Source: an uncultured Phycisphaerales bacterium (lineage in GTDB: Bacteria > Planctomycetota > Phycisphaerae > UBA1845 > Fen-1342). From it: 40,373 bases of DNA. Numbering within the stretch: the first letter of the stretch is position 1; every line of letters starts with the position of its first letter. Shown here in pieces: positions 312 through 40,238 of this stretch. The translations under genes were made by a program, and so were the position numbers. The notes under the pieces are model-generated. The model ran no database searches and was not told the DNA's origin. It saw nothing but the letters and a program-made list of their open reading frames with translations. The DNA lies in NCBI GenBank assembly GCA_903914415.1, contig CAIWOY010000059.1, forward strand, positions 1-40,373. Direction: 5' to 3'.

Positions 312-397
312 CGGCGGACGCGCCTGTTGGTCGTCCGGCTCGGTTGCTCAGCCGCGCGCCCGGGGGTACATTCGCGCCGGATTGGGGCCCGACGGCA

Positions 398-3300
398 ATG
401 CCGAAACGCAAAGACGCGCACAATCAGATCGCGCTCTTCTCAAACGCCGAGCCCAACGGCTCCGCCACGGCTCGCCTGCGCCGCCGTTTGTTCATCCGCG
501 CCTTTCTCATCGAGGAGTCGAAGAAACGCGCGCATCTCTACGGCGACGAGCTCGGCCGGGCGCACGCCATCCTGCACAAATGGGCTGACTTGGAGACGCG
601 CGGCGCCCTCGCGCGCAAGGAAACGTCCCTCGACGCCGAGTTCCTGGGCGAAATCTTCTCCGACGCCCTCGGCTACGCCCCGGCCACGACCGCCGCGGCA
701 ACCTACCAGCTCGAGCGCCAATTCGCCGTCCCCGGCGTCGGCACCGCCGACGGTGCGCTCGGCGCCTTTTCGGTCGGCCAGCCCCCAGCGCCGGTCGCGA
801 TCATCGAGCTCAAATCCGCGAACGTGAACCTCGACACCGACCGGTCCTCCGGCCGCACGCCGGTGCAGCAGCTCTGGGACTACCTCAACGCGACGCCGGA
901 CTGCCCCTGGGGCATCCTCAGCAACTTCGTCAGCTTCCGCCTCTATCACCGCGCCCACGGCTCCCGCGCCTTCGAGCTCTTCACGCTCGTCGAGCTCAAG
1001 GACCACGGCCGTTTCCGCGAGTTCTACCACGTGTTCGGCCCCGGCGGTTTGCTGCCCACGCGCTCCGATCCGACGCCACGCGCCCTCGCCCTCCTCACCC
1101 GCACCGGCGAGCGTCAGCGCGAAGTCGGCGACGAGCTCTATGAGGCGTACAGCAAGAACCGCCTCGACCTGATCCGTCACCTGCACACGAAGCTGGGCAA
1201 ACCGCTCGATACGGCCATCGCGGTCGCCCAGAAGCTCCTCGACCGCATCATCTTCGTCGCCTTCTGCGAAGACCGCGGCCTCCTGCCCCGCAGAATCATC
1301 CAGCGCACATACGAAGACCTCCCGCCGTTGGCCCGCGTCACGAATCCGCGCTGGCGTAACTTCATGGACCTCTTCCACGCCGTCGACAAGGGCCACCGCG
1401 CGTTCGACCTTGAGCAGGGCTACAACGGCGGCCTGTTCGCCCATGACGCCGACGTGGACGAGCTTCAACTGGACGACGACTGGACCAACTTCTTCCGCGA
1501 CATCGGCCGCTACGACTTCTGCGACGAAGTCAACGTTGAAGTCCTCGGCCATCTCTTCGAAAAGTCCGTCACCGAGCTGGAGAAGATCCGTGCCGGCGGC
1601 CTCTTTACCGCGGGCGGCCCCTTCGCTGCGGGCGGTCTCTTGACCCCCCTCCCTGCCAGGGAGGGGCCGGGGGAGGGTGGGACGGTCGCCCCCGCCACCG
1701 CTGGTAGTGGGGCCGGCGTCCCTGCCGGCCCAACCATGCCGAAGTCCGCCCAGCGCAAACGCTTCGGCATCTACTACACCCCGCCCGAATTCACCGACTT
1801 CCTCGTCCGCCAGACCGTCGGTGAGCTCCTCCGCGAACGCTTTGCCGCCCTCGCCCAACACCACGGCGTCTCGCCGTCCGATGCTAACCCCCCTCCCTCC
1901 CAGGGAGGGGCCGGGGGAGGGTCGCAATTCGCGATCACGGCGGGCACGCCATCGGCGCCTCCCGCCTACTACCGCGCCTGCCTCGCGGTCCTGCGTGACC
2001 TCAAGGTCTGCGACCCCGCCTGCGGCAGCGGCGCCTTCCTCATCCGCGCCTACGACTACCTCGAAGAGCAATACGCCGACGTGCTCGACAACCTGATCGC
2101 CGCCGGCGACCCTGACGCCGACAAGCTCGCCGACCAGATTCCCGACCTCATCCTCGCGGACAACCTCTTCGGCGTGGACCTTTCGCCCGAGGCGGTCGAA
2201 ATCACGCAGCTCGCCCTCTGGATTCGCTCCGCCCGCTGCGGCCACACGCTCGCCAACCTGTCGCAGAACATCATCTGCGGCAACAGCCTCGTGGACGATC
2301 CGGCGGTCCATCCGCGGGCGATGACATGGCCGGAGACGTTCCCGGCGGTTTTCCAACGCCCCGCCCCCGGCTTCGACTGCGTCATCGGCAATCCGCCGTG
2401 GGAGCGTCTCAAGCTCCAGGAGCGCGAGTTCTTCTCGCTTTCCGCCCCCGACATCGCCGCCGCCGTCAACGCGGCGGACCGGCGGCGCGTGATCGCCGAG
2501 CTCGAAAAGAAGAACCCCGATCTGTATGCCCTCTACGTCGCCGCCCAGCAAAACGCCGAGCGCACGCTCGGCTACGCCCGCACGTCCGGCCGCTACCCGC
2601 TCACGGGGAAGGGCGACATCAACACCTACGTGCTCTTCGCCGAGCTCGCCCGCACGATCGTCGCCCCCGACGGCCGCGTCGGCCTGCTCGTCCCCTCCGG
2701 CATCGCCAGCGACGACACGACCAAGGAGTTCTTCAACGCCCTGATGAGCGGCCAATCGCTCATCAGGCTGTACGACTTCGAGAACAAGCGCCCGTTCTTC
2801 CCAGACGTCGACAGTCGCTTCAAGTTCTCCGCCCTGGTCTTCGGCGGCGCCAACGTCCGCGTCCCGGCGGCCGATTTTGTCTTCTTCGCCCACCACATGG
2901 ACGACCTGAAACCGAAGAGCCGCCATATCCCGCTCAGCGCGGCCGACATGGCTCTTGTCAACCCGAACACGCGCACGTGCCCGATCTTCCGCTCGCGCCG
3001 CGACGCCGAGCTGACCAAAGCGATCTATCGGCACGTCCCGGTCCTCATCGACGAGTCGCGCGAGGAAGGCGGCAACCCGTGGGGCATCCGTTTCGTCCGC
3101 ATGTTTGACCAGACCAACGACGCCGAGCTGTTCCGGACAGCCGCCCAGCTCGCCAAGGAAGGCCTCAAGCTCCGCGGCAACCGCTGGCAGCTCCGCAACC
3201 ACGTCTTCCTCCCGCTCTACGAAGCGAAGATGGTTCAGGCTTACGACCATCGCGCTGCCGGCGTCGTAATCGACCCCGAAAACTGGGTCCGCCAAGGCCA

Positions 3301-4000
3301 AACCGTCGAGACGAGCCCCGTCTCCCACCAAAACCCCGAATTCGTCACCCAACCGCGCTGGTGGGTCGATCAGGAACGCGTCCGCGCGGCCCTCGGCGGT
3401 TCGCTCCCGCCCGCCGCGCTCTGCTACAAGGACGTGACCAGCCCGACCAACGAGCGCACGATGATCGCGGCGTTCATGCCCCCTGCGGCCGTCGTGAATT
3501 CGGCCCCCCTCGTGATCTTACAGAATGGCATCACCTGGCGCCTTCGCTGCTGCCTCCTGGCCAATCTCAACGCCTTCGCCCTGGACTTCGTCGCGCGCCA
3601 GAAGGTCGGCGGCCTCCACCTCAATTTCTTCATCGTCGAGCAACTGCCGGCCTTCGCGCCCGACGCCTACGCCGAGCGCTGCCCCTGGAAGCCAGCCCAA
3701 ACCCTCGAACGCTGGATTTCCGACCGCGTCCTCAAGCTCACCTGCACCGCCAACGACATGCTGCCCCTGGCCGAGGCCGCCGGCTTCAAGGACGGCGTCC
3801 ACAAGTGGAAGCCCGACGAGCGCGCCCAGCTCAAAGCCGACCTCGACGCCGCCTACTTCCACCTCTACGGCGTCAGCCGCGCCGACGCCGAGTACATCCT
3901 CTCCACCTTCACCGGCACCCAGCGCCGCGACACCGCCGAGACGGGCGGCTTCCGCACCGCCGACCTGATCCTCGCCGCCTACGACGAGCTCGCCGGCTAA
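398..4000 (+). CDS. Single-chain type IIG-like restriction-modification enzyme (Eco57I-type methylase domain)
   Basis: About 1200 residues. The N-terminal region carries a PD-(D/E)xK-like nuclease signature (AIIELKSANV, with E137 and K139). The middle has the N6-adenine methyltransferase motif I (CDPACGSGAFL, near residue 540) and motif IV (VIGNPPWERL, NPPW near 665), and the C-terminal ~400 residues would hold target recognition. Nuclease, methylase and specificity on one chain is the type IIG/Eco57I-like layout, cutting unmethylated foreign DNA while protecting the host. I chose the ATG at 398 because the protein begins naturally there (MPKRKDAHNQIALF); a TTG at 344 in frame is less likely. 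Two glycine/proline-rich inserts before and after the conserved YYTPPEFTDFLVRQTV block are made from short palindromic DNA repeats (see repeat entries). No partner methylase or helicase lies nearby, so it appears to act alone. Whether the nuclease is active cannot be judged. Confidence 0.85.
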   Translation: MPKRKDAHNQIALFSNAEPNGSATARLRRRLFIRAFLIEESKKRAHLYGDELGRAHAILHKWADLETRGALARKETSLDAEFLGEIFSDALGYAPATTAAATYQLERQFAVPGVGTADGALGAFSVGQPPAPVAIIELKSANVNLDTDRSSGRTPVQQLWDYLNATPDCPWGILSNFVSFRLYHRAHGSRAFELFTLVELKDHGRFREFYHVFGPGGLLPTRSDPTPRALALLTRTGERQREVGDELYEAYSKNRLDLIRHLHTKLGKPLDTAIAVAQKLLDRIIFVAFCEDRGLLPRRIIQRTYEDLPPLARVTNPRWRNFMDLFHAVDKGHRAFDLEQGYNGGLFAHDADVDELQLDDDWTNFFRDIGRYDFCDEVNVEVLGHLFEKSVTELEKIRAGGLFTAGGPFAAGGLLTPLPAREGPGEGGTVAPATAGSGAGVPAGPTMPKSAQRKRFGIYYTPPEFTDFLVRQTVGELLRERFAALAQHHGVSPSDANPPPSQGGAGGGSQFAITAGTPSAPPAYYRACLAVLRDLKVCDPACGSGAFLIRAYDYLEEQYADVLDNLIAAGDPDADKLADQIPDLILADNLFGVDLSPEAVEITQLALWIRSARCGHTLANLSQNIICGNSLVDDPAVHPRAMTWPETFPAVFQRPAPGFDCVIGNPPWERLKLQEREFFSLSAPDIAAAVNAADRRRVIAELEKKNPDLYALYVAAQQNAERTLGYARTSGRYPLTGKGDINTYVLFAELARTIVAPDGRVGLLVPSGIASDDTTKEFFNALMSGQSLIRLYDFENKRPFFPDVDSRFKFSALVFGGANVRVPAADFVFFAHHMDDLKPKSRHIPLSAADMALVNPNTRTCPIFRSRRDAELTKAIYRHVPVLIDESREEGGNPWGIRFVRMFDQTNDAELFRTAAQLAKEGLKLRGNRWQLRNHVFLPLYEAKMVQAYDHRAAGVVIDPENWVRQGQTVETSPVSHQNPEFVTQPRWWVDQERVRAALGGSLPPAALCYKDVTSPTNERTMIAAFMPPAAVVNSAPLVILQNGITWRLRCCLLANLNAFALDFVARQKVGGLHLNFFIVEQLPAFAPDAYAERCPWKPAQTLERWISDRVLKLTCTANDMLPLAEAAGFKDGVHKWKPDERAQLKADLDAAYFHLYGVSRADAEYILSTFTGTQRRDTAETGGFRTADLILAAYDELAG
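1643..1678 (+). repeat. 36-base palindromic GC-rich repeat inside the restriction-modification gene, copy 1
   Basis: The unit starts ACCCCCCTCCCTGCCAGG and ends GGGGGAGGGT; its arms pair (CCCTCCCT with AGGGAGGGG). It differs by one base from the copy at 1887-1922. Here it is read in the frame that gives TPLPAREGPGEGG. It sits in a linker between the helical region (TELEKIRAG) and the conserved RKRFGIYYTPPEF block. Confidence 0.85.
1704..1730 (+). repeat. GTAG-type palindromic repeat inside the restriction-modification gene
   Basis: A GTAG start is followed by a perfect 7-bp stem, GGCCGGC (1711-1717) and GCCGGCC (1724-1730), around a 6-base loop. This matches the layout of other GTAG-plus-hairpin units in the window. 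It is read in frame as part of SGAGVPAGPT, so the coding sequence tolerates it. It lies only 26 bases after the first 36-base repeat, which makes this linker a composite of two repeat types. Confidence 0.6.
1887..1922 (+). repeat. 36-base palindromic GC-rich repeat inside the restriction-modification gene, copy 2
   Basis: Thirty-five of 36 bases match the copy at 1643-1678, on the same strand, but this copy is read in a different frame, giving NPPPSQGGAGGGS. It lies between LAQHHGVSPSD and the conserved segment that leads into methylase motif I, so again in a linker. Confidence 0.85.
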
Positions 4001-12225: not shown

Positions 12226-13521
12226 ATGAAACGGAATCGCGCCGGTCGGATGTTGGTCGCCACGGGAGCGGCCCGGGATGTAACGGCCGACGCCCGTGTC
12301 GGGAATGTAGCGGCCGACCCCCGTGTCGGCCGTAGAAGGTGGACGGCGTTGCGTCCCATCAGCGCGCTCCTCGTGCTCGCCGCCGCGCTGCCCGTCTCCG
12401 CCCAACCCGCAGCCACGCAGCCGCAGGTTTCGCAAGAGCCGCCGCACGTGTCGTCGCCGGACGGTGCGTCTTTGCGGGCGGAGGCGCGGCGACTGGCCGC
12501 GCGCGGCGCCGAGTATCTCCTGTCAGCACAGGAAAAAGACGGCGGCTGGGGGGCGGACAAAGGGCCGGGCATAACCGCGCTGGCGCTGAAGGCCCTGATC
12601 CAGGAGCCGAGCGTCGGGTTGAAACATGCGGCCGTGCGGCGCGGCGTCGAGCTGATTCTGAAGTCGCAGCGCGAGGACGGCGGCATCTACTCCGCCGAAG
12701 GGCTGCTCAAGAACTACGAGAGCAGCGTCGTGCTGTCGATGCTGGCGGTGCTGAAGGACCCGGCGTACGCCAAGCAGACGGCGGCGTTGCAGAAGTTCCT
12801 GAAGGACAACCAGTGGGACGAGGGCGAGGGCAAGTCGCCGGACGACGCGTGGTACGGCGGGGCGGGGTATGGACATGGGAAACGGCCGGATTTGTCGAAT
12901 ACGCAGATGATGCTGGAGGCGCTGCGCGACAGCGGGCTGCCGAAGGACGATCCGGTGTACAAGAAGGCGCTCGTTTTCATCCAGCGTTGCCAGATGCTCG
13001 GGGAGACGAACGATCAGCCGTTTGCCAAGGGGGCGACGCAGGGCGGGTTCATTTACTCGCCGGTCAACGGCGGCGAGAGCAAGGCGACGGAGACGGTGGA
13101 CGTGGAGGGGCGGGCGGAGCTGCGGTGCTACGGGACGATGACGTACGCGGGGTTCAAGAGCATGCTGTACTGCGGGTTGCCGCGGGACGATGCGCGCGTC
13201 AAGGCGGCGCTGGACTGGATTCGCCGGTATTGGACGCTGGAATACAACCCGAACATGCCGGAGAAGCAGTCGCGCGAGGGGCTGTTCTATTACTACCACG
13301 TGTTCGCGCGGGCGCTCGACGCGCTGGGCGAGCCGGTGATCGAGGACCGGGCCGGCCGTTTGCACGCGTGGCGGCAAGAGCTGGTCGAGCGGCTGCACAA
13401 GCTCCAGCGCGACGACGGCAGTTGGGTGAACGAGGCGGATCGCTGGATGGAGGGCGCTCCGGCGCTGACGACGGCCTACGCGATGCTGGCGCTTGAGGCG
13501 GCGTTTCCGGCGGAGAAGTGA
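12226..13521 (+). CDS. Squalene-cyclase/prenyltransferase-like repeat protein, secreted
   Basis: About 431 residues with an alpha/alpha-toroid fold like squalene-hopene cyclases and prenyltransferase beta subunits. QW-like repeats are clear: LLSAQEKDGGWGADKGPGI, LILKSQREDGGIYSAEG, and LHKLQRDDGSWVNEADRW near the end. The DxDD catalytic motif of true cyclases is not seen, so it is probably a structural or binding relative rather than a hopanoid enzyme. A hydrophobic segment (RPISALLVLAAALPVSAQ) ending before QPAATQPQ looks like a signal peptide, but it is displaced ~45 residues from the start by two palindromic repeats (12277-12334) that encode DVTADARVGNVAADPRVG. The ATG at 12226 is my choice; 12154 and 12211 are in frame, and a later unseen start nearer the signal segment is possible. 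Confidence 0.82.
   Translation: MKRNRAGRMLVATGAARDVTADARVGNVAADPRVGRRRWTALRPISALLVLAAALPVSAQPAATQPQVSQEPPHVSSPDGASLRAEARRLAARGAEYLLSAQEKDGGWGADKGPGITALALKALIQEPSVGLKHAAVRRGVELILKSQREDGGIYSAEGLLKNYESSVVLSMLAVLKDPAYAKQTAALQKFLKDNQWDEGEGKSPDDAWYGGAGYGHGKRPDLSNTQMMLEALRDSGLPKDDPVYKKALVFIQRCQMLGETNDQPFAKGATQGGFIYSPVNGGESKATETVDVEGRAELRCYGTMTYAGFKSMLYCGLPRDDARVKAALDWIRRYWTLEYNPNMPEKQSREGLFYYYHVFARALDALGEPVIEDRAGRLHAWRQELVERLHKLQRDDGSWVNEADRWMEGAPALTTAYAMLALEAAFPAEK
12277..12334 (+). repeat. Two tandem GTAG-type palindromic repeats in the N-terminal coding region
   Basis: Units at 12277-12303 and 12304-12334 share GTARCGGCCGAC followed by CCCGTGTCGG; the second ends CGGCCGTAG. Each folds as a CGGCCGAC / GTCGGCCG-type hairpin. 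They resemble the unit at 40165-40193. They are translated in frame as two DARVG/DPRVG repeats ahead of the signal peptide. Confidence 0.8.
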
Positions 13522-21496: not shown

Positions 21497-23722
21497 TCAC
21501 TCCACCGGCGGCACGTCAAACTCGACCGGAATCGTACTCACTACATGCCTGTCGACGTCACCCGTGTCAAGCCTCACTATGTACCGGAATTCCAGCGTAG
21601 CGCTTACCGTGCGTGGGTCTCGCTCGTCGCCGTCGAGCACCTCACAGATTGCGCCATCAGTCACCGCTGCCGTCGCCGCGTCGTCGCTCCCAAAAACGTC
21701 GGCGCCGAATTCGTATACCCCTCCGTATGCGGGGTGCAGATCAGGGGATATGGTTAACTTGAAGGCGGGCCCGTAACCGAGGGTCGCGTCGCCCCAGGGC
21801 TTGCCGAAGTGCGCCGTCGCGCTCATGCGGAACCAGAGCTGGTACCGGGGCCGATCTGAGCTCACGGACCCCTGCTGGTAAATGCTGAAGTCGGCGGTAT
21901 CGATCTGCCCTCCCGGGTGGCGGCGATAATGGATCGAGTACGAACCGGTAAAGTCGCGGTCCCAGTACTCGTCCCCGCGGTTGCGGGCACTCACCCGCAC
22001 ATACAGATACCCGCTCCCCATCGTGACCTTCACGGTCGTCTTTTGTTCCTCGCCCATGCTCCCAAACATGTAGTTGCCGTCGATGAGCTCCTCACGCTGG
22101 TTGTACACGTAAACGAGCCCCCCCTTGCGGGAGATATTCTGTACCTCGATGTCCACAATATCTCCGTTGCTAACAGGAATCTTGAACCAGTCCTCGTCGT
22201 GATCGTTCTCAATGACACCGCTCACCACGACATCCAGGGGCATTGTGTACCCGTCGCCTGCGGAGTTCCCGTAATCGTCGGTCGGCGGAGGCGCCGATAC
22301 GGCGACGCCAATCTCGTCCCATGCTACTTGCGGGGGAGACGACGAGTCGCGGACTACCAGCGCGTAGCCCGTGTCTGCCGACGGCGAGACCTGGGGGTTC
22401 TGGTCGGAGCTCGACCACCCGTCTGGTGAGGACCAGTGGAACGAGTATGGCGCCTTGCCGCCGGTGGCCCGCCCTCGTAGCGTAGTGCTTTGGCCTCGAG
22501 TAATGGCGTCGTCGTCGGTGCTCGCGGTGGCCACCAGGGTGGTTTGGCTGGCGCCGGGACCGTCCCCGGACGGGGTTGAATCAGTGCCGGGGCCGGTATA
22601 CACCCACGTCCCGTCAGCAGGGGCAGTACTGGTGCTGCCTCCGAACAACAGCGTCGCGCCGTGGGCGCCGTCGTATACCATTTCGTGATAAGCAAGCGGC
22701 GGGGGGCCATGGACGGGCTGCTCCCGCCAAGTAGTGCCGTCCCATTCCCACGTGTCGTCGGTATATGACTGGTCACGCAGGGCTCCGCCATACAGCACGG
22801 TAACGCGTCGCGCGCTGTCGTAGGCCAGGCCGTGGAGAAACCGCGCTGGCGGGCCGTTTACGGTGCGTTGCGTCCAACTGGTACCATCCCACTCCCAGGT
22901 CTCGTCGCTCAGACCAGGATAGCCGCCGCCGGTATCGCCACCGAAGAGTACGCAAACGCCGCGAGAGCTGTCGTAGACCATCGGCACATTCTGCCGCGGA
23001 GACGGCCCGGTCGTGGCCCGTTGCGTCCACGCGCTTCCGTCCCACTCCCACGTGTCGCCTTGAATTCCGCCGCAGTAGCCGCCGAACAACACGGTGCGGC
23101 AGCGCCGGCTGTCAAAAGCCATCGCAAACGAACCGCGCGCGCATGGGCCTGATGTGCTTCGGAGGGTCCATGCGCTGCCGTTCCATTCCCAGGTTTCACG
23201 ACTGTGCGCCCCGGGTCCGACGTAACCGCCGAAGAGTACGGTCACGTCGCGGCAGGTGTCATAGACCATCTTGTGGGCCAGCCGGCCGGAGGGCCCTGGC
23301 ACATCACGGCGGGTCCAGGCCACGCCGTTCCATTCCCAGGTGTCGGCTAGGTAGTCGCCGCCGCCAAAAAGGACCGTGACCCCGCGCACGCTGTCACAGG
23401 CCATCCCGTGCGCACCGCGTGCGGAAGGGCCAGGTACGGTGTGCAGCGTCCAGGGCATGTCCGGCGAGGCGGAAGTCGTCGAGGGGGACCCCGGCTGGGC
23501 GGGCGCTGAGTTGGGATCACATGCGTCGCCGACTCCATCGCCGTCTGCATCCGCTTGGGATGGATTCGGCGTGTCGGGACAATTGTCCCGCGTGTCGCAC
23601 ACCCCATCTCCATCCCGATCACCGTCGAGGCACGGGCAGCCGGCTGTAAGGCCGAGCACGACAACCAACAAGACTAGCGACACATCCTTGACCTGCGTGC
23701 TATGGAGGACTCCCGTTCGCAT
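21497..23722 (-). CDS. Kelch-repeat lipoprotein with thrombospondin type 3 repeats
   Basis: A 741-residue surface protein. A lipoprotein signal ends LGLTAGC with Cys29. A short calcium-binding thrombospondin type 3 segment follows (DGDRDGDGVCDTRDNCPD and a second copy). Six Kelch-like blades come next, each with VLFGG or VLYGG and DTWEWNG(S/T)xWT, between residues ~90 and 385, enough for a six-bladed propeller. After an Ig-like stretch with YSFHWSSPDGWSSSD there is a beta-rich domain with DEDWFKIPVSNGDIVDIEV, like pre-peptidase C-terminal domains. AAGGAG lies before the ATG. It starts 24 bases after the TPR gene and so belongs to the ECF sigma operon. A binding role at the cell surface is likely; the ligand is unknown. 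Confidence 0.85.
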   Translation of the reverse strand: MRTGVLHSTQVKDVSLVLLVVVLGLTAGCPCLDGDRDGDGVCDTRDNCPDTPNPSQADADGDGVGDACDPNSAPAQPGSPSTTSASPDMPWTLHTVPGPSARGAHGMACDSVRGVTVLFGGGDYLADTWEWNGVAWTRRDVPGPSGRLAHKMVYDTCRDVTVLFGGYVGPGAHSRETWEWNGSAWTLRSTSGPCARGSFAMAFDSRRCRTVLFGGYCGGIQGDTWEWDGSAWTQRATTGPSPRQNVPMVYDSSRGVCVLFGGDTGGGYPGLSDETWEWDGTSWTQRTVNGPPARFLHGLAYDSARRVTVLYGGALRDQSYTDDTWEWDGTTWREQPVHGPPPLAYHEMVYDGAHGATLLFGGSTSTAPADGTWVYTGPGTDSTPSGDGPGASQTTLVATASTDDDAITRGQSTTLRGRATGGKAPYSFHWSSPDGWSSSDQNPQVSPSADTGYALVVRDSSSPPQVAWDEIGVAVSAPPPTDDYGNSAGDGYTMPLDVVVSGVIENDHDEDWFKIPVSNGDIVDIEVQNISRKGGLVYVYNQREELIDGNYMFGSMGEEQKTTVKVTMGSGYLYVRVSARNRGDEYWDRDFTGSYSIHYRRHPGGQIDTADFSIYQQGSVSSDRPRYQLWFRMSATAHFGKPWGDATLGYGPAFKLTISPDLHPAYGGVYEFGADVFGSDDAATAAVTDGAICEVLDGDERDPRTVSATLEFRYIVRLDTGDVDRHVVSTIPVEFDVPPVE

Positions 23723-23746: not shown

Positions 23747-25558
23747 TCAGTTCGGGCGCTGTCGGGTCGCAGCGCCCAGTTCTTCCCACGCTCGGAACTG
23801 CCGCAGAAACGCCGTGCGCTGGTCATCGTTCATCCCGGCGGCCATCTGCCGCGGAACGTACAAAGCCTGCTCGACCAACGCGTGGCCTTCGCTGACATCT
23901 CTGTCATCCCGGCCCACCCCCAGCAGCGCGACGCCGTGCAGCAGGTCCAACTCGGCACGGGCCAGCGGACCGATCGGCGGCCTATCGACGGCGACGGGAT
24001 CTTCGTCGGGACGGGCCATGCGCACCCAGCCGGTGTGGGTGCTGGCCTCCTCCGCGGCCGCTAGGGCCGCCACGCAGTCGCGGCGCGCGATCGCAATCCG
24101 CGCGCTCTCCATCGGGCCGGTGAAGTCCATGCGGCTTTCGTCCATCCGCGGAGAGTACGGGAGCGACTCGGCGTCCTTCATCGCCTGTTCCGCACCGTCT
24201 AGGTTCTGCTCTAAACGGCGCAGGCGGGCCTCGACTAGCAAGTGCTCTCGCAACTTCGCCGCCAGGCTCACGGCGTCATGTGCCAGGCCCTCCCACGGCC
24301 CGTCCGCAGCAGTTACGCGATCAATCTCGCCGCGCGCTGGCCCAAAGGCCAGGTGCCACAGTTGGGTCAGCGAGGCGTCCGCGGCGAAGCTCACCTGAGC
24401 CCGCTCGCAGCGCCGCCGCAGGGCGTAGCGGAGTGCCTCTTCGGCGCGGCCCTGCCACCGCCGGGCCTCGCCAAGGTCGCCCACACTGATGCCCACGCAG
24501 GCCAAGAGCCGGTAGAGCGGCCCGAGAGTGTGACACTCCGCGTCCTTGGCGGCGCGCCCCCGCTCACTCGGCTCATTCGGGTCGCCACTCACCCGATTGC
24601 GGGCGTCGATCGAAGCAAGGAAGGCCTCGCGCGCCTCGTCGAAACGGCCCTGACGGGCATGGATGGCGCCGATGTCGGCGAGAAGCACGAATTCCCAGTC
24701 CCACGACTTGCATTCCCGGCTGCAACGACGCGCCGCCTCTGCCTCGCTCAGGGCCTCGTCGAATCGGCCCAGGTCCCGTAGGTCCCGGATAATCCGGTTC
24801 CACCGCGGCGCAATCTTCGGAATCCCGGCGCACGCGGCGTCCGTGCCAAGAACGGTGATCTCGTCACGCTCCTGTCGATTCGTGCGAATCCGGGCTTCGG
24901 TGACTGTGATGTCCTCTGGGTCGGTGATGCCGCCGCCGGCGAGGAAACACGCCTCGGCGCGGGCGATCCCGTGCGGCCCGGCGTGAATCAGGAAGAAGCC
25001 CACCAGAATTGCCGCCGCCAGGCCAGAGCCGATGAGCCAGCGGGCGCGACGACGCAGCGCGCGCAGGACGCGCGTTGCTACGCGAACGCGTCGCTGGTGC
25101 TCGGGGCTCGGAAGAGGCCCCTCGCTTCCGCTCGGGCTCTGAATGGCGCCGAGCGACTCCACGGGAACCCCTCGCTGGCGCTCGGGGCTCAGAAGGGGCC
25201 CCTCGCTTCCGCTCGGGCTCTGATGGTGAGCACGTGCTCGTGCGAGAATCTCCGCGGCGCGGCGCTCGTTGCGGCCCGGCGTTTGCGCGTAATAGGCGCT
25301 CAGCACGCCGTGCATGGCCCACTGGGCGGGGTCGAAGGGGTCGTCGGCGGTGAGGCGGTCGTCGGGGGGAACGGGCGGCGGAGGTTGGGGTCCCCCGGCG
25401 GACCCCGGCATCACTGCCGGGGCTCCGATCGGATGGGGCACCGGCCCGGAACCCTGAACGCCGAACCCTGGACCATCGGACGGGCCAGAGGCCCATGCTC
25501 CCCGCGAATCGGGTGGTTTTTCAGACATGGAGAGCCAATTGGGTGGTTCTTCAGACAT
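23747..25558 (-). CDS. TPR membrane protein coupled to an ECF sigma factor (putative anti-sigma or signalling partner)
   Basis: A 603-residue protein with one membrane segment (RWLIGSGLAAAILVGFFLIH, near residue 180). The cytoplasmic N-terminal part is Pro-rich and contains FDPAQWAMHGVLSAYYAQTP and a repeat-derived insert. The C-terminal part has TPR-like helices: RFDEALSEAEAARRC, RFDEAREAFLASIDARN and NLDGAEQAMKDAE. The gene overlaps the sigma factor stop by 8 bases, the usual sign of a sigma/regulator pair; in planctomycetes such partners are often TPR proteins with or without a kinase domain. No kinase motifs and no zinc-binding anti-sigma HxxxCxxC are seen. The start region is duplicated in tandem (MSEEPPNWLS MSEKPPDSRG). 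An open frame continues to 26107 but is the shadow of the sigma gene. Confidence 0.75.
   Translation of the reverse strand: MSEEPPNWLSMSEKPPDSRGAWASGPSDGPGFGVQGSGPVPHPIGAPAVMPGSAGGPQPPPPVPPDDRLTADDPFDPAQWAMHGVLSAYYAQTPGRNERRAAEILARARAHHQSPSGSEGPLLSPERQRGVPVESLGAIQSPSGSEGPLPSPEHQRRVRVATRVLRALRRRARWLIGSGLAAAILVGFFLIHAGPHGIARAEACFLAGGGITDPEDITVTEARIRTNRQERDEITVLGTDAACAGIPKIAPRWNRIIRDLRDLGRFDEALSEAEAARRCSRECKSWDWEFVLLADIGAIHARQGRFDEAREAFLASIDARNRVSGDPNEPSERGRAAKDAECHTLGPLYRLLACVGISVGDLGEARRWQGRAEEALRYALRRRCERAQVSFAADASLTQLWHLAFGPARGEIDRVTAADGPWEGLAHDAVSLAAKLREHLLVEARLRRLEQNLDGAEQAMKDAESLPYSPRMDESRMDFTGPMESARIAIARRDCVAALAAAEEASTHTGWVRMARPDEDPVAVDRPPIGPLARAELDLLHGVALLGVGRDDRDVSEGHALVEQALYVPRQMAAGMNDDQRTAFLRQFRAWEELGAATRQRPN
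25091..25223 (-). repeat. Two 52-base repeats inside the TPR gene
   Basis: Copies at 25091-25142 and 25172-25223 differ at three positions. On the minus strand each begins TCAGAGCCCGAGCGGAAGCG. They are 81 bases apart, a multiple of three, and are translated as SPSGSEGPLLSPERQRG and SPSGSEGPLPSPEHQRR. They lie in the Pro/Ser-rich region before the membrane segment. Confidence 0.88.
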
Positions 25559-26324: not shown

Positions 26325-26353
26325 CGCGGCTCGGCAGGAGCCTCGCCCTCCCG
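26325..26353 (+). repeat. 29-base repeat, copy 1
   Basis: Identical to 27282-27310: CGCGGCTCGGCAGGAGCC followed by TCGCCCTCCCG. A related 19-base core lies in dprA in the opposite orientation. Confidence 0.88.
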
Positions 26354-26354
26354 T

Positions 26355-26434
26355 GGCGCCCCGCACTCGCGTGCGGGGTTCGGATCGGACGGCAGCCCCC
26401 GGCGCCCCGCACTCGCGTGCGGGGTTCGGATCGG
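26355..26434 (+). repeat. Two identical 34-base hairpin repeats
   Basis: Copies at 26355-26388 and 26401-26434 have the same 34 bases, GGCGCCCCGCACTCGCGTGC followed by GGGGTTCGGATCGG. Each contains a perfect 8-bp stem, CCCCGCAC and GTGCGGGG, around TCGC. They lie just downstream of the amidase stop (26448), where they could act as transcription-end hairpins. Confidence 0.9.
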
Positions 26435-26447
26435 GTGACACGCCCCC

Positions 26448-38512: not shown

Positions 38513-38593
38513 TGAAAGCTGATGGCTGAAAGCTGAGAGCTTTAGAAAAGCGGGCATGTGCGCTCGCCCTTCCCGCGAAGGTGCGCCGACGAG

Positions 38594-38826
38594 CGGTCAC
38601 ACTGGCAGGTCTTCTGACTTCCGGGTGCGTCGCGCGCCGCAGCACGCGACTCCTACAAGCTGCGCCTTCTCAGCCGTTGCTCCGCGCCTCGCTGGGCGAG
38701 TGCGGCCCCCCGCGGCCAATGACATTTGCAGCGTTCGTACCCGGTCACAGCGACGGGGTCGTTCCGGACTTGCACCGGATTCCCTATTCTTCCGGCCGCT
38801 CCAAGCGACCGGACACCAGCGACCAA
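38594..38826 (-). ncRNA. Cobalamin (AdoCbl/B12) riboswitch
   Basis: On the minus strand the conserved blocks occur in the right order: GGGAATCCGGTGCAAGTCCG (38765-38784), then GACCCCGTCGCTGTGACC (38743-38760), GAGCAACGGCTGAGAAGG (38665-38682), and AGTCAGAAGACCTGCC (38604-38619, the B12-box end). The ends GGTCGCTGG (38816-38824) and CCAGTGTGACC (38595-38605) pair as P1. The length of about 230 bases and the spacing fit class I cobalamin riboswitches. It reads toward the dockerin-like gene whose ATG is 217 bases downstream; the gene on its other side is divergent. Binding of cobalamin should lower expression of the downstream operon. Confidence 0.93.
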
Positions 38827-38922
38827 CTCGACATGTACCCCGGCGCCAAGCCGCCGTCAAGGCCGTGCGCGGCACGTTCAGCATTCCGGAGCCACTAGCC
38901 GGGCCACGACCGCCTTCCCATA

Positions 38923-40164: not shown

Positions 40165-40238
40165 GTAGCGGCCGACGCCCCGGTCGGCCGTAGGATACCA
40201 ACTGGTTTTCTACGTCCGGCAGGGGCGCCGGACGCTAC
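40165..40238. repeat. Two GTAG-type palindromic repeats in opposite orientation
   Basis: The unit at 40165-40193 reads GTAGCGGCCGACGCCCCGG then TCGGCCGTAG; the unit at 40210-40238 reads on the minus strand GTAGCGTCCGGCGCCCCTGC then CGGACGTAG. They face each other with 16 bases between, in the spacer before the IS630-type gene. Confidence 0.85.

Follow-up and report, generated by a model that had tools for sequence, protein, structure and literature searches.

The window analysed here, 40,373 nucleotides of contig CAIWOY010000059.1 from an uncultured Phycisphaerales bacterium (assembly GCA_903914415.1), opens on a gene for an Eco57I/MmeI-like restriction-modification enzyme. Its likely ATG lies at 398, which gives a coding region of 398..4000 (+) and a protein of 1200 aa. 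The ORF matches PF07669 (E=3e-21) and PF20473 (E=2e-11), retains intact methylase motifs (DPACGSGAF and NPPW), and is itself intact, with a strong coding signal. Within it lie two copies of a 36-base palindromic unit, a short tandem repeat, and a palindrome of another family (Table 1).

Table 1. Positions of the restriction-modification gene, its repeats, and other features of the window
Feature	Position	Strand	Remarks
Host ORF, Eco57I/MmeI-like restriction-modification enzyme	344-4000	+	Open from 344, 1218 aa
Imperfect tandem copies of GCGGGCGGCC[C/T]CTT (AGGLF-TAGGPF-AAGGLL)	1608..1642	+	Belongs to the extra segment at site 1; in no homologue
Palindromic unit copy 1, bare form, ACCCCCCTCCCTGCCAGGGAGGGGCCGGGGGAGGGT, read TPLPAREGPGEG	1643..1678	+	Starts on a codon
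GTAG-tagged REP-like palindrome, another family, GTAG-TG-GGGCCGGC-gtccct-GCCGGCCC	1704..1731	+	Encodes part of AGSGAGVPAGP
Palindromic unit copy 2, bare form, ACCCCCCTCCCTCCCAGGGAGGGGCCGGGGGAGGGT, read (N)PPPSQGGAGGG(S)	1887..1922	+	Starts on codon position 2
Six repeat copies ~147 nt apart within one gene	22638-23405		Probably a repeat protein
Two tandem pairs of GC-rich repeats, 74-81 and 46 nt	25069-25223 and 26350-26441		Resemble more repeat families
Cobalamin riboswitch	38587-38835	-	87.5 bits; sole Rfam match, elsewhere than the unit

A preliminary description of this DNA had reported two 36-base units, 35/36 identical and read in two frames of a single gene, and both the coordinates and the frames are borne out; the copies differ at one base. 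Copy 2 has a CCC/CC loop, a type common to 9 of the 76 copies found in the genome. The third palindrome had been correctly placed between the units and in a different family, but its end was given one base short, at 1730. It carries the tetranucleotide GTAG at 1704-1707, and its single-strand fold beats 200/200 shuffles (z -3.9). There is one exact copy in the genome, with imperfect relatives elsewhere that bear a GGAGT- or GTA-type 5' tag.

The protein was aligned with 16 planctomycete homologues, from Phycisphaerae and beyond, at 43-75% identity (its own paralogue at C408 among them), a comparison that the preliminary description had suggested for deciding whether the repeat-bearing segments are extra. 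Both segments are missing in 16/16 of these restriction-modification homologues. The extra material comes to ~32 residues at site 1, encoded by the unit together with the AGGLF-like tandem repeats and the GTAG palindrome, and to ~16 residues at site 2. Close relatives have no copy of the restriction gene. AlphaFold2, run with these homologues, returned a mean pLDDT of 69.5 for the protein, with residues 401-459 and 494-518 scoring below 50; in the same numbering, copies 1 and 2 of the unit occupy residues 416-427 and 497-509, and the GTAG palindrome falls at about 436-445. The model gives both segments as linkers of low confidence; the preliminary description had likewise placed the insertions in linkers.

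Site 2 is, by sequence comparison, probably a recurrent landing place for repeats. The G022 relative (75% identical) has a different repeat there, GAGCCGCGCCCGTTAGGAAGCGG. In another restriction-enzyme relative (L156, 4780-4950), several copies of this second REP family (RAATVRERESS / PLPDGRGS) stand directly before the catalytic NPPW. On L228 and L229, RAYT genes have copies of the family of G022 site 2 and L156 on their two sides, in opposite orientation.

To place the unit in its genomic context, the genome (4.74 Mb in 464 contigs) was searched with the pattern CCCTCCCTNNCAGGGAGGGGNNGGGGGAGGG, allowing up to 3 mismatches. The search yielded 76 matches, versus 0 for the reversed pattern, and the unit is therefore not a product of chance. 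This count, another check put forward in the preliminary description, establishes that the repeat is not unique to the restriction-modification gene. Taken by itself, the 36-mer folds as a single strand no better than its dinucleotide shuffles do (z 0.1 and 0.7), and no Rfam family matches it; the support for the 36-mer is its repetition, not its folding energy. Beyond this genome, the unit is present in 20/100 relatives (21/101 counting the window's own genome), the richest of which, a genome of the same family, has 96 copies. Few of the genomes sampled across the phylum contain it: 9/392 (at most 2 mismatches, own genome counted). Its distribution is therefore patchy, like that of mobile repeats.

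Alignment of flanks revealed that ~31-34 of the 76 copies are embedded centrally in a 78-bp element, GTGTGCCTAACAGAACCC-[core]-TCGAAACGCCCGGGTTTTGATAGGCGCTC. This longer form has imperfect 18-bp terminal inverted repeats (14/18 matching) and is bounded by a TNA duplication, which is identical on both sides in 13/31 copies (shuffle mean 5.7, P 0.00035); the centre base of TNA alone is identical on both sides in 22/31 (expected 11). The terminal inverted repeats and the TNA duplication together identify the 78-bp form as a MITE. It also folds better than shuffles (z -3.3). The element plus its duplication measures 81 bp, exactly 27 codons, which predicts 27 additional residues per insertion. Molybdopterin dehydrogenase has precisely these +27 residues, as does polyprenyl synthase by comparison with a family member without the insert, and a kinase of the phosphoribulokinase/uridine kinase family with two tandem copies has +54. 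The MITE form is scarcer in genes than the bare form (4/21 vs 30/55, Fisher P 0.009). We considered whether the copies in the window are full MITEs and rejected this, given that their flanks match at no more than 4-6 of 16 positions and 6-9 of 24; the copies at 1643 and 1887 are the bare core form. In G003, which belongs to another genus of the same family, the copies are bare with different flanks, and the core therefore looks like an older, independent repeat.

A codon model was trained on the fetched regions and used to classify each of the 76 copies, a copy being counted as genic if both its flanks scored as coding in a shared frame or if it lay within a called gene. At least 21 of the 76 copies are genic, versus ~79% of the sequence that is coding, a strong depletion (P about 1e-21) that is expected if most hits in genes are purged. 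Four of the six possible frames are used, reading TPLPxREGxGEG (5 copies), PPPSQGGxGGG (7), TLPxPLPxREG (5), and PSPGPSLxGRG (6, including two with weak support). These four are nearly stop-free, being open in 73-75 of 75 copies. The remaining two frames are open in 57/75 and 34/75 copies and are used in 0/23, an absence that has a P of about 0.002 after weighting for stops, in a test made after seeing the data. Because these two frames are unused despite the weighting, the choice of peptide appears not to be wholly neutral.

The genes that host the unit include those for NAD-dependent DNA ligase (ligA), GlnRS (glnS), AlaRS (alaS), Mfd (mfd), an AcrB-like transporter, and UbiD, together with the phosphoribulokinase/uridine kinase family protein, polyprenyl synthase, and molybdopterin dehydrogenase. 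In LigA, GlnRS, polyprenyl synthase, and molybdopterin dehydrogenase, the unit falls at positions with little or no counterpart in solved homologues.

Comparison with a sister species (G001) at twelve other filled genes gives the insertions a relative age. The site is empty in 9/12 of these genes in the sister species, and in the other 3/12 (polyprenyl synthase, the AcrB-like gene, and a BcrAD-type ATPase) the same insert is present in the same frame, with substitutions. A CitF-like gene provides a fourth insert common to both species. Some insertions are therefore recent and others old, and they can outlast speciation.

As a rule, REP palindromes go together with RAYT transposases. At 35 RAYT (PF01797) loci, 5 in the genome of the window (G000) and 30 drawn from part of the matches in ten other genomes, no RAYT gene was flanked by the 36-mer (0/35), and the flank tables contained no GTAG or CGTC tag at the ends of the 36-mer. 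A search for an insertion sequence with the terminal repeats of the MITE returned only more MITE copies (two truncated or at a contig end) and weak scattered matches, in a 464-contig assembly whose repeat regions are incompletely assembled. A DDE transposase that leaves TNA duplications is implied by the MITE form and was not found in this assembly; we suggest the IS5-like group as a candidate for it.

Other palindromes in the genome do pair with RAYT genes. For instance, a 169-aa RAYT at about 3565-4254 of L080 (G000 C48) is flanked by GTAGCGGCCGACCCCCGTGTCGGCCGTAG in a classic REP transposase unit, and GTAG repeats similar to those at this RAYT also occur in the window at 12280-12335 and 40165-40193. 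A second RAYT, at 976-1587 of L082 (G000 C379), is flanked by inverted CAGAGCCCCGAGCGCAAGCGAG, and a repeat similar to CAGAGCCCCGAGCGCAAGCGAG adjoins the palindrome in the BcrAD-type ATPase gene and probably also in alaS. Moreover, RAYT domains themselves are found in frame within larger ORFs. A 1629-aa isoleucyl-tRNA synthetase ORF (L081, G000 C18, 6590-11476, minus strand) holds an in-frame RAYT of about 200 aa (PF01797, HVH motif) directly before KMSKR, where solved enzymes run on without a gap, and GGGTGGGGTGGGCGTCTCGCCCGCC-type repeats flank it. A PF01797 domain likewise lies in frame within a valyl-tRNA synthetase ORF (L229, G298 C7, 1-3210, minus strand), where inverted GAGCCGCGNCCGTNAGGNAGCGG repeats flank the transposase, and another within a DNA methylase ORF of a different planctomycete (L242, G095 C149, 1-3162, plus strand).

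We propose that the 36-base unit is, very probably, a non-autonomous REP/MITE-like mobile palindrome that inserted twice independently into linkers of the restriction-modification protein, is translated there, and is tolerated. Two copies would have entered two flexible linkers of the gene independently and would be translated as Pro/Gly-rich disordered loops. Their persistence could be explained by a net insertion that keeps the frame, by a GC-rich unit that is nearly stop-free in four of six frames, and by linkers that would put up with extra residues. The comparisons among homologues and species show the insertions, the preserved frame, the linker positions, and the long retention between species. 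We infer that the inserts are neutral selfish DNA rather than selected. We also infer the mode of movement, in which the bare form would be moved by a REP-like or recombination route and the 78-bp form, as a MITE, by a DDE transposase leaving TNA duplications.

The crowding of a tandem repeat, two units, and a GTAG palindrome into one gene might suggest that the restriction-modification gene is decaying and that the inserts are tolerated only because its protein no longer works. We regard this as very improbable: the ORF is intact, its coding signal is strong, and DPACGSGAF and NPPW are kept, and the presence of the unit in the essential or core genes ligA, glnS, alaS, and mfd indicates that a dead host gene is not needed. 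It is very unlikely that the palindromes are instead DNA or RNA signals selected in the gene, such as a hairpin or G-quadruplex switch or an mRNA processing or pausing site. Four G-runs able to form a G-quadruplex on the G-rich strand are kept in 75/76 copies, although the search pattern itself imposes this, and the fold of the 78-bp form also fits a signal. However, copies are depleted in genes, where they occur in both orientations and at different places in unrelated genes; relatives manage without the units, and Rfam offers no match.

Descent of the two units from a duplication within the gene, rather than from two insertions, would account for their 35/36 identity. The flanks are wholly different, however, as are the frames, and the 1887 copy, with its CC-type loop shared by nine copies, resembles copies elsewhere no less closely than it does the one at 1643; such a duplication is highly improbable. 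Finally, we give almost no credence to an assembly or binning artefact in which a repeat was collapsed or misplaced in the 464-contig assembly. Some copies do stand at contig ends, but others are well inside contigs, the placement is in frame, and the same inserts occupy the same gene sites in the independent genome of the sister species.

A stronger version of the mobile-palindrome proposal is that the element has evolved to do no harm in genes, as a frame-neutral parasite that lands in protein linkers and adds disordered loops to core enzymes genome-wide; the same trend would extend to the in-frame REP transposases in tRNA synthetases. This reading arises because the element and its target duplication together have a length divisible by three and because four frames are nearly stop-free, and we consider it possible but doubtful.

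Several known systems resemble the one described here. The Rickettsia palindromic elements (RPEs) are palindromic repeats found genome-wide and in frame in conserved genes, and at least one tested case, in guanylate kinase, is translated (PMC2229807; PMC10969869). The preliminary description had likened the units to RPEs, and the comparison holds in the sense of "works like": a palindromic repeat has spread, inserts in frame into conserved protein genes, and leaves empty sites in relatives. RPEs, however, measure about 105-150 bp and belong to Rickettsia, whereas here a 36-bp GC-rich core or a 78-bp MITE is used in four frames in a planctomycete. We do not file the unit as an RPE, because its host is a planctomycete; the likeness is one of behaviour.

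The GTAG/CGTC REPs are 20-40 bp palindromes that occur inside ORFs, sometimes twice per ORF, including those for DNA ligase and tRNA synthetases (Di Nocera 2013, PMC3733652). The 36-mer is like these super-families in its genic placement but has neither a GTAG/CGTC tag nor an adjoining REP transposase; of the two palindrome families in the gene, it is the one at 1704-1731 that bears GTAG. In-frame fusions are known for the MITEs ERIC/RU-1 and the 107-bp Correia element, which have terminal inverted repeats, a target duplication, and open frames fused to host genes (PMC2229807). In contrast to these, the element described here makes 81 bp together with its duplication, a multiple of three, and its core also exists without terminal repeats.

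Within the PVC superphylum, REPs inside genes are known from Opitutus terrae, and Planctomycetes too have been reported to contain REPs (PMC3733652), and so the novelty is smaller than was implied by the earlier statement that such elements have not been widely described in planctomycetes. A literature search for in-gene palindromes in Phycisphaerae turned up no relevant report. New in the present case are the family itself, the pair of bare and MITE forms, the frame-neutral arithmetic of 81 bp, the use of four frames, and the matched empty and filled sites of species pairs in Phycisphaerae.

These observations point to another bacterial lineage, beside Rickettsia and unrelated to it, whose working proteins regularly gain peptides from small mobile palindromes. 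The 27-codon length of the inserted DNA, together with mostly open frames, offers a concrete reason why the element survives in essential genes. Moreover, species pairs with both empty and long-kept filled sites make it possible to test whether such inserts are simply tolerated or shape the proteins that carry them.
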